A DNA stretch of 40,598 bases, from positions 1 through 40,598 of the forward strand of contig CAMCSO010000006.1 in NCBI GenBank assembly GCA_945877545.1, given 5' to 3'. The notes below the pieces were generated by a model that saw only the letters and a program-made list of their open reading frames with translations, searched no databases and was not told the origin of the DNA. The DNA comes from Bifidobacterium breve. GTDB lineage: Bacteria; Actinomycetota; Actinomycetes; S36-B12. The number at the start of each line of letters is the position of its first letter. Position 1 is the first letter of the stretch. The position numbers were made by a program, and so were the translations under genes. Positions 1 through 3,993 of this stretch are shown here, piece by piece.

Positions 1-2106
1 GTGACTGCACCTGATCACTGGAAGGTCGTGAGCAACTCGCCGACACCAGTGCCAACAGCTGTGTCCGAGGCAGTCGCCCGCTGGGAGTTCGCCCCGACCC
101 CGCGCATGTCGACCTACATCACCGCCCTCGTCGCCGGGCCCTATCACGAAGTGAGCGATGAGTACGCCGGACCGTACGGCACGTATCCGATGGGCGTCTT
201 CTGCCGCGAGTCGCTCGCTCAATACCTCGACGCCGACGACATCTTCGAGTTAACGAAGCAGGGCTTTGCGTTCTTTGAGGAGCAGTTCAAAACCCCTTAC
301 GCATTCGGCAAGTATGACCAACTCTTCGTGCCCGAGTTCAATGCTGGCGCGATGGAGAACGCAGGATGCGTGACCTTCCTCGAGGACATGGTCTTCCGCT
401 CCAGGGTGACCGACGCCGCCTACGAGCAGCGTGCCAACACGATCCTCCACGAGCTCGCGCACATGTGGTTCGGCGACCTCGTCACCATGTCATGGTGGGA
501 CGATCTGTGGCTGAACGAGTCATTCGCCGAGTGGGCCTCCCACTACGCCAACGTCAACGCCACCCGCTACACCGATGCCTGGACAACCTTCTCCAACCAG
601 CGCAAGGCGTGGGCCTACCGTCAGGACCAACTGCCCTCGACCCATCCGATTGCGGCCGACATGGTCGACCTCGATTCGGTTCGCGTCAACTTCGATGGCA
701 TTACCTATGCGAAGGGCGCCTCAGCGCTTCGCCAGCTCGTCGCGTGGGTGGGCGAAGCCGAATTCCTCGCTGGGGTCAAGACATATTTCGTCAAGCACGC
801 GTGGGGAAACACTGAGCTCTCGGACCTGCTGTCCGAGCTCGAGGTGACCTCGGGTCGCGATCTGTCGAACTGGACGCAAGAGTGGCTTCGAACGAGCGGG
901 GTGAACCTCATGCGCCCGGCGCTCACCGTTGATGGGGCGGGCAGTTACGCCTCGTTCGCCATCCTTCAGGAGCCGCCGACCTCGCCCGAGGGAATCGAGC
1001 CGATCCTGCACTCGCATCGCATGGCGATTGGCCTGTATGACCTCAACGATGGCGTTCTCACTAGGCGCGAGCGCATCGAGCTCGATGTCGTCGGCGCGCG
1101 AACCGACGTGCCTCAGCTGGTGGGCACGCGGCAGCCGGACTTGCTCCTCCTCAACGACGACGACCTCACCTTCACGAAGATCCGCCTCGACGAGCGGTCA
1201 TGGGCCACCGCCGTAGACCACCTCGGCCAGATCGATGACTCCCTCGCCCGAGCGCTCGTCTGGGGAGCCGCTTGGGACATGACGCGCGATGCCGAGGTGT
1301 CGACCGGCGACTACCTCTCCCTCGTGCTGAGCGGCGTCGGCGCCGAGTCCGACATCGGAGTCGTTCAGGTCATCCTGCGTCAGCTGAAGACCGCGATCGA
1401 CTTGTACGCCGCTCCTGAGAACCGCACTCCCAACCTCGAGCAACTGGCCTCAGGCATGCTCGCGCTGGCAACAGCCGCCGAGCCAGCGAGCGATCGGCAA
1501 CTCGCATTCACTAGAGCGTTCCTAGGATCCGCGGTGACGAAGGATCACCTCGCCATCCTGAAGGGCCTGCTTGACGGATCGGTCACGTGGGATGGCCTGG
1601 CGATCGACACCGACCTGCGCTGGTCTCTACTCCAGCGGCTCGTATCGCAGGGCGAGGCCGACGAGTCGCTCATCGAGGCCGAGTTGGCAAGCGACGACAC
1701 AGCGACCGGCCGCCGGCAGGCCGCAGTCGCGCGGGCAGCGCGACCGACAGCCGTCGCAAAGGAACTGGCGTGGGCCGACATCATCGATCGCCATGACCTG
1801 CCGAACGCACTCATGAACGCGACGATCGGCGGCTTCGTCCAGCCCGATCAGGTTGATCTCCTGCGCCCGTATCGAGCCGCCTACTTCGAGGTGCTGCCCC
1901 GGGTCTGGCGGGAGCGCACGATGGAGATGGCCCAGGACATCACGATGAGCCTGTACCCGGCCTACCTTGTGGAAGAGCAGACCCTGGCCCAGACCGATGC
2001 GTTCCTATCAGCACCTGATCTCGCAGCTCCGCTGCGAAGGCTGCTCGGCGAGGGCCGCGACGGCGTGGTCCGGGCAATGCGCGCAAGAGCAAGAGACATC
2101 ACCTAA
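1..2106 (+). CDS. pepN: Aminopeptidase N, M1 family (5' end cut off by window)
   Basis: Zinc metallopeptidase that removes N-terminal amino acids from peptides in the cytoplasm. Counting from position 1, the exopeptidase motif GAMEN is at residues 116-120, the zinc site HELAH at 150-154 and the third zinc ligand E173 in NESFAEW, giving the HEXXH-x18-E pattern of clan MA. The long helical C-terminal domain (ERAP1_C-like) follows to residue 701. Intact actinobacterial PepN proteins are about 850 residues, so roughly 150 N-terminal residues lie upstream of the window. The GTG at position 1 is therefore very probably an internal codon, not the start. The TAA stop is followed within a few bases by the left inverted repeat of the next element. 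Confidence 0.95.
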   Translation: MTAPDHWKVVSNSPTPVPTAVSEAVARWEFAPTPRMSTYITALVAGPYHEVSDEYAGPYGTYPMGVFCRESLAQYLDADDIFELTKQGFAFFEEQFKTPYAFGKYDQLFVPEFNAGAMENAGCVTFLEDMVFRSRVTDAAYEQRANTILHELAHMWFGDLVTMSWWDDLWLNESFAEWASHYANVNATRYTDAWTTFSNQRKAWAYRQDQLPSTHPIAADMVDLDSVRVNFDGITYAKGASALRQLVAWVGEAEFLAGVKTYFVKHAWGNTELSDLLSELEVTSGRDLSNWTQEWLRTSGVNLMRPALTVDGAGSYASFAILQEPPTSPEGIEPILHSHRMAIGLYDLNDGVLTRRERIELDVVGARTDVPQLVGTRQPDLLLLNDDDLTFTKIRLDERSWATAVDHLGQIDDSLARALVWGAAWDMTRDAEVSTGDYLSLVLSGVGAESDIGVVQVILRQLKTAIDLYAAPENRTPNLEQLASGMLALATAAEPASDRQLAFTRAFLGSAVTKDHLAILKGLLDGSVTWDGLAIDTDLRWSLLQRLVSQGEADESLIEAELASDDTATGRRQAAVARAARPTAVAKELAWADIIDRHDLPNALMNATIGGFVQPDQVDLLRPYRAAYFEVLPRVWRERTMEMAQDITMSLYPAYLVEEQTLAQTDAFLSAPDLAAPLRRLLGEGRDGVVRAMRARARDIT

Positions 2107-2111
2107 CCCCT

Positions 2112-2185
2112 CGTTCATCTGGCCCAGAATCCGGGTCGCCTGAACGATTCAGCCCGGGATTTGGCGGTATTCGTTCATCCTGCCC
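2112..2185. repeat. Left long inverted repeat
   Basis: This block matches the reverse complement of 3266-3352 over nearly its whole length. Shared pieces in order are TTCATCTGGCCCAGAATC, GCCTGAACGATTCA and ATTCGTTCATCCTGCCC, with a few mismatches and an insertion of about 15 bp in the right copy. The motif TCGTTCATC-TGCCCA occurs at both ends of this copy (2112 and 2172), and the middle contains the palindrome CTGAACGATTCAG. Confidence 0.8.
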
Positions 2186-2241
2186 AAGCGGGCTGTGGAT
2201 AGTCGTTTGACGATTCAGAGCGCACCTTCCACAGTGCTCCT

Positions 2242-3249
2242 ATGCCCGGAGCCAATCGAACCGCTCACGACACCCAATCTCTCCGAGACTCCGTCCGCCT
2301 GCTCGCAGCGATGCAGGGACGCGTCTTTCGGAGAGAGGACCTCAGTACTTGGGGGCACGACGCAACCGTCGTTCAGGCTATGGTCCGGAAGGGTCATTGG
2401 CGAAAGATCCGCTACGGCATTTACGCCGACACCGATGACTTGCGCAGTTCCGAGGGTGATGCACGCTTGATGCACGCAATGGAGTGCGCTGCCGCAGTCA
2501 AGGCGCTGCGCCTTCCCGCCTTCGTCTTCGGACCCTCGGCAGCGCTTCTGCACCAACTTCCTCTCCAAAACGGTCTCGCCGACAATCCCCATCTCGTCCG
2601 CTACCCATACCGCGACATTCGCGTGCTCAACCGCTCCGCAAAGCGGTCTGAGTCACTGCCGAACGTGAGCGTCGTGAGCCACGAACTTCATCCCGCCCAA
2701 TTGACCGCTTGGGAGGGCATCCCAATTGTCGGGCGACCGCTGGCCGCAGTGAGTGCGGCCTGCTATGCGCGGCCAGATTGGGCCGTCGGTCTGCTCGACG
2801 CGGTGCTCTGGGACGGGTCCGCGACCCGGGAGAGCCTCAACGAGATCATCGGGGAATGGCCACTCCTCCGCGGCATCGGCACGGTGCGTAGGGCGATCGA
2901 ACTCGCCCGCCCGGGAGCCCAGACAATTCTCGAGACCCTCTCGCGAGTGCGACTAGTACGGGCTGGTCTCGAGGATCCAGCGTTGCAGCGCGAGTTTCGC
3001 GATGAAGTCGGCCTCATCGGATATGCCGACATGTTCTGGGAGTCACTCGGCGTCATCGGCGAGGCTGATGGCCAGATGAAATATGAGACGCGGGTGGACA
3101 TCTTCAACGAGAAACTCCGCGAGGACAGGCTTCGGGCGCTCGGCTACATCGTCGTGCGATGGACCTGGGACGAGATCATGACTGATCCAAAGGCCGTCGC
3201 AAGGCGCATCCTTGTGGGGTCGCAAATTTCGCGACGACGTGCCAGTTGA
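2242..3249 (+). CDS. AbiEi-like N-terminal domain protein with DUF559-type C-terminal nuclease fold
   Basis: 335 residues from ATG 2242. The N-terminal part (about residues 20-60: MQGRVFRREDL..VVQAMVRKGHWRKIRYGIY) resembles the winged-helix start of AbiEi-type antitoxins, where a recognition helix is followed by R-x-G-x-Y/F. The last 80 residues have the DUF559/Vsr-like PD-(D/E)XK pattern: YADMFWE, then GEADGQMKY, then EKLREDRLRALGYIVVRWTW. Proteins of this build are common in actinobacteria and are often annotated as type IV toxin-antitoxin AbiEi family or DUF559 proteins. No AbiEii toxin partner is adjacent. The gene stands alone between long inverted repeats, which argues for a mobile orphan. 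A nuclease role is inferred from the fold signature; the substrate is unknown. Confidence 0.75.
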   Translation: MPGANRTAHDTQSLRDSVRLLAAMQGRVFRREDLSTWGHDATVVQAMVRKGHWRKIRYGIYADTDDLRSSEGDARLMHAMECAAAVKALRLPAFVFGPSAALLHQLPLQNGLADNPHLVRYPYRDIRVLNRSAKRSESLPNVSVVSHELHPAQLTAWEGIPIVGRPLAAVSAACYARPDWAVGLLDAVLWDGSATRESLNEIIGEWPLLRGIGTVRRAIELARPGAQTILETLSRVRLVRAGLEDPALQREFRDEVGLIGYADMFWESLGVIGEADGQMKYETRVDIFNEKLREDRLRALGYIVVRWTWDEIMTDPKAVARRILVGSQISRRRAS

Positions 3250-3265
3250 CGCACGAAACCCCCGT

Positions 3266-3352
3266 GGGCCAGATGAACGAATCAGGCTGAAATCCGTCTT
3301 GAATCGTTCAGGCTGCCCAGATTCTGGGGCAGATGATTCTGGGTCAGATGAA
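3266..3352. repeat. Right long inverted repeat
   Basis: Begins 17 bases after the DUF559-type gene stop and is the inverted partner of 2112-2185. Read on the minus strand it starts TTCATCTGACCCAGAATC, has an extra partial copy (ATCTGCCCCAGAATC), then GCCTGAACGATTCA, and ends ATTCGTTCATCTGGCCC. It lies between two convergent genes, so it could also serve as a terminator region. Confidence 0.8.
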
Positions 3353-3365
3353 GGGGGGCTTGGGG

Positions 3366-3755
3366 TTAGGCGGGGCCGTCTTCGTGGACGACGTGCGGGG
3401 CGCGGGCTCGTTGGGCGAGGAGGTTGACCGCGTCGCGTATTCCGCCGACGAGATCACCTGCCTCGAACGAGGATCTCATCGCGAGCACCGCGAGCTCACA
3501 GGACCGATCATCGAGTGCGCGCGCAGCATGGCTGCCGGTGACGATCTCGATGGACCGAGCATCCGGATCGACCGCTACGAGCACAGCGCCCGGCGCATCA
3601 GCTAACTGAGCGTGCCTGGCAACCGCTGAATCGCGGCCGCTCGGCAGTTCACCGACGAAGATGCCAAAGGACAGGCCGCTGATCTCGCGGCCAAGATCAA
3701 TAACCCGCTGCAGGTCGCTGACCTGCCCTCTGGAGAAATCACTACCAGGTGCCAT
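3366..3755 (-). CDS. DUF5130 family protein
   Basis: 129 residues from ATG 3755, which has a good ribosome site (GGAGGTGG a few bases upstream). A longer open frame extends upstream but has no comparable site. The core reads SGLSFGIFVGEL, then VLVAVDPDARSIEIVTG, then DRSCELAVLAMRSSFEAGDLVGGI, matching the TPM-like DUF5130 family of actinobacteria, whose biochemical function is not established. The gene overlaps the end of the small membrane gene by about 14 bases and is the last gene of a three-gene minus-strand unit starting with malQ. It ends beside the right inverted repeat of the DUF559 cassette. Confidence 0.7.
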   Translation of the reverse strand: MAPGSDFSRGQVSDLQRVIDLGREISGLSFGIFVGELPSGRDSAVARHAQLADAPGAVLVAVDPDARSIEIVTGSHAARALDDRSCELAVLAMRSSFEAGDLVGGIRDAVNLLAQRARAPHVVHEDGPA

Positions 3756-3993
3756 GTGCTCCACCTCCCACTGCTGACGATGACGCTGCCCCGATCTCGC
3801 GAGGAAGACGCGACGGATCCGGCAGCGCGCCAGACGTCTGGATGAACAGACTGCCACCGGACGCACCCGCCTCAGACGCCACCTGGGCACGACCAGAACG
3901 GGTCCATGATGCGGCAAAAACGAGGAGTGCGACGAGCACGGCGAACGCCGCCGGGATGCCGAGGAATATGAGGAGAGCCTGGCCTGAATTCAC
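3742..3993 (-). CDS. Small single-pass membrane protein
   Basis: 83 residues from GTG 3993, one base after the malQ stop, so probably translationally coupled. Residues 6-28 (ALLIFLGIPAAFAVLVALLV) form one strong transmembrane segment; the remainder is a polar, probably cytoplasmic tail rich in Ser, Gly and Ala. Small one-pass proteins of this kind commonly accompany DUF5130 genes in actinobacteria. The function is unknown. Its 3' end overlaps the DUF5130 start. Confidence 0.6.
   Translation of the reverse strand: MNSGQALLIFLGIPAAFAVLVALLVFAASWTRSGRAQVASEAGASGGSLFIQTSGALPDPSRLPREIGAASSSAVGGGAHGTW

Follow-up and report, generated by a model that had tools for sequence, protein, structure and literature searches.

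A nuclease gene framed by inverted palindromes from a dispersed repeat family: a possible counterpart of REP/RAYT systems in actinobacteria

Genes for DUF559/AbiEi-like proteins are abundant orphans, usually classed as antitoxins or as genes of unknown function. Why, then, should one such gene stand alone between two long inverted repeats, as it does in the 40,598-nucleotide stretch of DNA analysed here (the window)? The initial annotation of this sequence took the gene and its repeats to be a transposase-less cassette, perhaps spread by its own nuclease, which could explain why genes of this kind are scattered in actinobacterial genomes. We examined the locus, its repeats and its relatives across the class with this question in mind.

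The nuclease gene and its flanking repeats

The gene (2242..3249, + strand; 335 aa) is bordered by pepN, which encodes an M1 aminopeptidase (1..2106, + strand) and whose 3' end forms one insertion border, and by a convergent DUF5130 gene (3366..3917, − strand; identified by profile and neighbour comparison), which forms the other. The blocks at 2112-2185 and 3266-3352 had been described as imperfect inverted copies of one another, and they align as such: the arms (2115-2192 and 3259-3336) are 78 nt long and 77% complementary, and are accompanied by a second, outer inverted pair of 30 nt (2102-2131 and 3335-3364; 83% complementary) and by a 16-mer whose inverted match is perfect (2111-2126 and 3265-3280). 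A core 18-mer, TTCATCTGGCCCAGAATC, has four matches in the window at up to 3 mismatches, three of them within the two blocks, where 0.02 would be expected, and CCTGAACGATTCA is matched exactly in both the left and the right block. The complementarity of the arms, together with the count of the core, rules out a chance origin of the inverted repeat.

Both flanks are copies of a repeat that we call R1. The left copy (2111..2192, + strand), which reads CATCTGGCCC..GGG..GAACGA-spacer-ATTCGTTCATCC.GCCC, was matched by the R1 model at 2116-2202 (E=1.8e-14), and its second hairpin is truncated toward the gene. The right copy (3249..3352, − strand; model match at 3249-3335, E=4.1e-14) is inverted and carries at its outer end an extra 15-bp tandem (3320-3334 and 3335-3349); both copies are shortened on the side facing the gene. 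Between the left repeat and the gene, the motif CTGTGGATAG (2193..2202, + strand; consensus CTGTGGAYAA) can be read from the sequence, with a possible -35 element, TTGACG (2207-2212, + strand), just after it. The ORF list and Pfam profiles revealed a single ORF and no transposase in the space between the repeats. The Pfam profiles likewise found no AbiEii (DUF1814) toxin gene beside the nuclease gene, its neighbours being pepN and DUF5130; since no toxin partner adjoins it, a type IV toxin-antitoxin identity was ruled out. A search for known RNA families across the window returned one tRNA only.

Profiles and the predicted structure divide the encoded protein into a putative AbiEi-like winged-helix/DNA-binding region and a C-terminal DUF559 nuclease domain of the PD-(D/E)XK type (probably Vsr/EDxHD-like). 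The DUF559 tail, which the initial annotation had recognised, was confirmed by the PF04480 profile, which matches residues 261-325 at 23.3 bits against a Pfam cut-off of 20.6; the AbiEi_4 profile stays below its Pfam cut-off (17.5 vs 25), and PADLOC gives an AbiEi match at E=4e-8. We place the nuclease domain at about residues 230-327 (2929..3222, + strand) on the basis of the DUF559 match, the AlphaFold2 model and the residues E231, D263, E274, D276, K280, E290 and R293, which are invariant in 25 homologues and include the catalytic acids of the PD-(D/E)XK type (E231, D263, E274 and D276; 25/25). Judged from dN/dS values of 0.04-0.17 between species, the gene is under purifying selection. With the AlphaFold2 model (mean pLDDT 90.7) as query, Foldseek matched AbiEi (6y8q) at a probability of 1.00 but a weak E-value of 2e-3, and the catalytic domain of the homing endonuclease I-Bth0305I (3r3p) at a probability of 1.00 but a weak E-value of 0.07; Vsr (1vsr, E=2.0) and NGO0050 ranked after these two, and a profile comparison matched the protein to NGO0050 at E=4.5e-4. 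Pfam gave no match to a Y1/HUH tyrosine transposase domain (PF01797) in the gene. Carriage by phages was rejected, the gene having matched nothing in phage records; plasmid records gave one distant match.

R1, a dispersed palindromic repeat of the genus

When the left block was used as a query, many more copies were found in its own genome (2.97 Mb in 307 contigs). The consensus drawn from 14 ungapped copies is 87 nt long, CATCTGGCCCAGAATCCGGG..GATGAACGAA-spacer-TTCGTTCATCT.GCCC.GA(A/T)TC.GGGCCAGATG, and the 14-copy alignment shows two hairpins of about 27 nt that lie 60 nt from each other, with an inverted pair at the centre; covariation of the stem in the repeat alignment was not significant, lying not clearly above shuffles. 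A covariance model of R1 identified 22 sites in the own genome at E<1e-6, of which 20 are away from the nuclease gene, and most copies are gene-less. Such a search of the same and related genomes had been suggested by the initial annotation, which named isolated, gene-less repeats as one of the findings that would count against its cassette. Its description therefore stands in part: a single gene does lie between inverted repeats in the absence of a transposase, but the repeats are not the private ends of one cassette, because they belong to a dispersed palindromic family.

R1 is abundant in 5/5 genomes of the genus and almost missing from 54 other genomes of the family and order, two of which gave weak matches. 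A pattern scan of named genomes produced real matches only in two congeneric MAGs, other taxa having one match per contig. The genome G003 holds many copies of R1, and the nuclease gene was not found in its assembly, which is 92% complete. Solo copies are located for the most part at the 3' ends of genes and in the gaps between convergent ones, not at promoters; 13/24 of them lie at convergent gene ends, as against 4/25 gene pairs in the window (p=0.007).

Tandem arrays with a 60-nt period were found at three places (G003:C140, G004:C200 and G004:C190). One R1 site comprises about 1.5 units of 60 nt in G000 (C157:5272-5358) and about 4 in G003 (C140:400-606), and another has one copy in one species and two in its sister species. 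Wherever a comparison was made, sister species carry solo copies at the same sites, in a sample that is biased because its loci were fetched for containing R1, so that absence could not be scored; these shared sites imply that spread has been old or slow here. Two further arrangements were noted. Half an R1 palindrome lies at or within the coding region of a distant DUF559 paralogue (L034:1510-1536, which is G000:C1:15799-15825; also L081 and L082), in frame in L034. In three species, a gene for a secreted protein stands between two directly oriented R1 copies some 2 kb apart (G000:C190:344-430 and 2385-2471; G002:C90; G003:C55), and the DNA beyond each of these copies resembles, by eye, the end of a RelE-type toxin gene.

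Bracketed homologues across the class

The gene family was matched in 266/395 genomes sampled across the class. We scored bracketing by aligning the upstream flank of each homologue to its reverse-complemented downstream flank, with a threshold of >=40. This was reached at 26/40 homologue loci within the family and at 38/62 distant loci elsewhere in the class, so that long flanking inverted repeats are present at 64/102 homologue loci class-wide, about 37% being without a clear bracket. Among control ORFs, which were defined mechanically and often have no intergenic gaps, the count was 0/304: 0/181 in the family set (highest score 28) and 0/123 in the same distant genomes (highest score 35). 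Fisher's test on the pooled counts, computed with 63/102, gave p ~3e-47. Some loci are orthologous in close relatives (for example L032/L072/L073/L074, L186/L187 and L197/L199), and the independent cases are therefore fewer than 64, though still several tens. The association of gene and repeat is secure, and we hold it to be practically certain. These are class-wide single-gene elements, in which a homologue bracketed by its own repeat is the rule; the earlier description of a single-gene unit is supported by its recurrence with homologues throughout the class.

One gene only is found between the repeats of bracketed loci. Across the 64 loci the repeat has a median length of 78 nt, with a median of 72 nt from repeat to start codon and 12 nt from stop codon to repeat, and 83% of the bracket repeats fold with z<-2. 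A CTGTGGAYAA-like motif, which resembles a reversed DnaA box, lies between the left repeat and the gene at many loci, its strict form being present at 11/63 as against 0/123 controls. At a paralogous group in a second locus of the genus (G000:C47 and orthologues; 47-49% aa identity), a related but diverged repeat forms the bracket, and within the own genome the two paralogues (48% aa identity) are flanked by separate, diverged repeats, one by R1 and the other by R2. A simple motif search had made the C47 paralogue appear unbracketed, a reading that was overturned by the covariance model and flank alignment.

The bracket repeats were found to be dispersed in 37/37 genomes tested with pooled bracket queries (18 of the family and 19 that belong, almost without exception, to other families of the class). 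Among the matches listed there were 7 to 59 per genome, figures that are not copy numbers, since they include the gene's own two copies, since palindromes match both strands and since about 20 candidates at most were scored in each genome; where there were 7-8 matches, solo copies are few. Among the matches listed, those in most genomes were chiefly to the genome's own query segment. The more alike two proteins are, the more alike are their repeats (mean similarity 0.12 for pairs under 40% aa identity and 0.73 for pairs over 80%), and the Mantel correlation between repeat and protein, although small (0.19 vs 0.15), exceeded all 500 permutations. In a named isolate, Arthrobacter sp. StoSoilB13 (NZ_AP024649.1), a distant homologue has a bracket score of 64, and its repeat occurs at 6 sites in one large replicon and at 5 in another. 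Calling the system actinobacterial rests on the initial annotation, on the context of Pfam matches and neighbouring genes and on this Arthrobacter record.

In nearly all the genomes examined outside the genus, 5-105 bp separate pepN from a convergent DUF5130 gene next to it, and these gaps are empty sites. The comparison proposed in the initial annotation, of strains with and without the insertion, accordingly yielded the empty sites in relatives, but no visible target duplication, because the intergenic DNA of the empty sites compared is too diverged. Within the genus, the nuclease gene and repeat lie beside DUF5130 in G002, where the contig begins within the gene, and beside pepN in G004, where the contig ends in the right repeat. 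The cassette at this site is shared by descent among at least three species of the genus, and so has not been recently mobile there. In another genus, the empty pepN-DUF5130 gap (L090, G009) contains a different large palindrome, CTTCGTTGAGTGCGGAGTTGTTGG..CCAACAACTCCGCACTCAACGAAG.

At a second site, between convergent genes that we identified by eye as gltA (citrate synthase) and dapD, at least 11 cassettes from several genera, with different repeats and proteins, are found (L075, L180-L183, L185, L188, L189 and L193-L195). In our reading they lie in both orientations, 7 vs 4, which suggests either inversion between the repeats or repeated arrival. Elsewhere, judging from the flanking DNA, L267 and L270 (in the congeneric G179 and G164) share an insertion locus and have opposite cassette orientations.

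Known systems and competing explanations

The closest known systems are the REPtrons and the TIRtrons/TIRYTs (PMC3733652). As in REP/RAYT systems and TIRtrons, one gene is flanked by inverted palindromic or terminal repeats, of which many hairpin-forming solo copies are also dispersed in intergenic DNA; the repeat varies along with the enzyme, and spread is slow. Whereas RAYTs are HUH Y1 tyrosine transposases, however, the enzyme here is a DUF559/Vsr-like PD-(D/E)XK nuclease with an AbiEi-like DNA-binding region; the repeats are also longer than REPs, at about 75-90 nt, and the R1 alignment consensus contains neither a GTAG nor a CGTC tag. A profile search of the own genome, in which positive controls were matched, found no Y1_Tnp domain anywhere, ruling out a RAYT as mobiliser of the repeats. 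The predicted fold of the catalytic domain may resemble that of Vsr/EDxHD homing endonucleases such as I-Bth0305I, and break-driven copying is plausible, but unlike their genes the one described here lies outside any intron or intein, is bracketed by palindromes, and has no recognised homing site that we could find. Free-standing DUF559 proteins (NGO0050, 3hrl) have the same D..ExD strand motif but not the DNA-binding extension; to our knowledge, no repeat association is known for them.

We lean, by a little, toward a reading in which this two-domain protein, encoded between inverted copies of a dispersed palindrome, binds and nicks its cognate repeat and spreads it, much as in REP/RAYT systems but with an unrelated nuclease. 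In its favour are the recurrent bracket around a single gene, the dispersal of each cognate repeat, the separate repeats of the two paralogues, the joint variation of repeat and protein, the invariant nuclease residues, the low dN/dS, the two Foldseek matches, the empty sites and the two orientations of the gltA-dapD cassettes; binding, cleavage and spread by the protein are what we infer from these. Three other explanations deserve consideration. Proteins of the AbiEi type are known to bind inverted repeats of 23 bp next to the genes that encode them, and AbiEi and Rv2827c autoregulate through such repeats in their promoters (PMC7319586). The predicted N-terminal fold may resemble that of AbiEi and Rv2827c, and the region may by analogy also bind inverted repeats, while the left repeat is found a short distance before the gene start; the flanking repeats might therefore be operators for autoregulation, with the dispersed copies serving as a regulon, as titrating decoys, or as marks of self DNA against a defensive nuclease. 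We think this unlikely, given that the gene has another, inverted copy beyond its stop codon, that solo copies favour gene 3' ends and convergent pairs (13/24 vs 4/25) over promoters, and that no AbiEii-type gene adjoins. The protein moreover differs from AbiEi in carrying its own conserved nuclease domain, and the locus from AbiE in having repeats that are both two-sided and dispersed.

That repeats far outnumber genes, and persist in G003, where the nuclease gene was not found, would also fit MITE- or REP-like elements that owe their movement to an unrelated transposase, with the gene a passenger between two copies. Chance capture cannot explain the pattern, however, because brackets surround 64/102 homologues and 0/304 controls, with different repeats in different genomes; with no Y1 transposase in the own genome and no other gene found between the repeats, we regard this explanation as very improbable. 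Their position at the 3' ends of convergent genes, their hairpin potential and their conservation at orthologous sites would instead be expected if the repeats were functional elements kept by the host, such as bidirectional terminators or insulators, and the nuclease a caretaker or gene-conversion enzyme, with repeats copied to the ends of its own locus. Yet a host-essential element would not be expected to be almost missing outside the genus, as R1 is, or to change its sequence wholly between genera, and the gene is bracketed at both ends regardless of its neighbours; this explanation too seems to us decidedly unlikely.

Spread and persistence of the cassette and of solo repeats through cognate nicking is the likeliest mechanism, and spread of the cassette by its own nuclease, which we still only infer, is better motivated now than when it was first suggested. 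In such a mechanism the AbiEi-like region would, by analogy, recognise the cognate palindrome, and the nuclease domain would nick it, perhaps in an extruded or single-stranded form, after which repeat units and, occasionally, the whole cassette could be copied or shuffled by repair, recombination or strand transfer. The protein would in this way maintain and slowly spread its own repeat, a role that has been proposed for RAYTs with respect to REPs. Against this reading, no movement was observed: solo copies share their sites between sister species in the biased sample compared, the cassette is vertically inherited at this locus and no target duplication is visible, so that movement is old or slow. 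The homologue loci that have no clear bracket, the many R1 copies in G003, where the gene was not found, the weak Foldseek E-values and the stem covariation not clearly above shuffles count against it as well. It is quite possible, although we stop just short of calling it probable, that this is an undescribed actinobacteria-wide system, selfish or domesticated, in which a PD-(D/E)XK nuclease joined to a palindrome-binding region like that of AbiEi generates, propagates and edits a genome-specific family of palindromes; its likeness to RAYT/REP would then be convergent, the catalytic folds being unrelated. A full-text literature search, with most subscription papers and preprints outside its scope, found no account of an association between DUF559 genes and repeats, which we provisionally regard as new.

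The bracket gives DUF559/AbiEi-like orphans a likely substrate, and dispersed palindromes a likely enzyme. Since every genome supplies its own pair of enzyme and repeat, the named soil isolate included, both are directly testable. If the enzyme does make the repeats, at least two unrelated nucleases would each have given rise to REP-like families.
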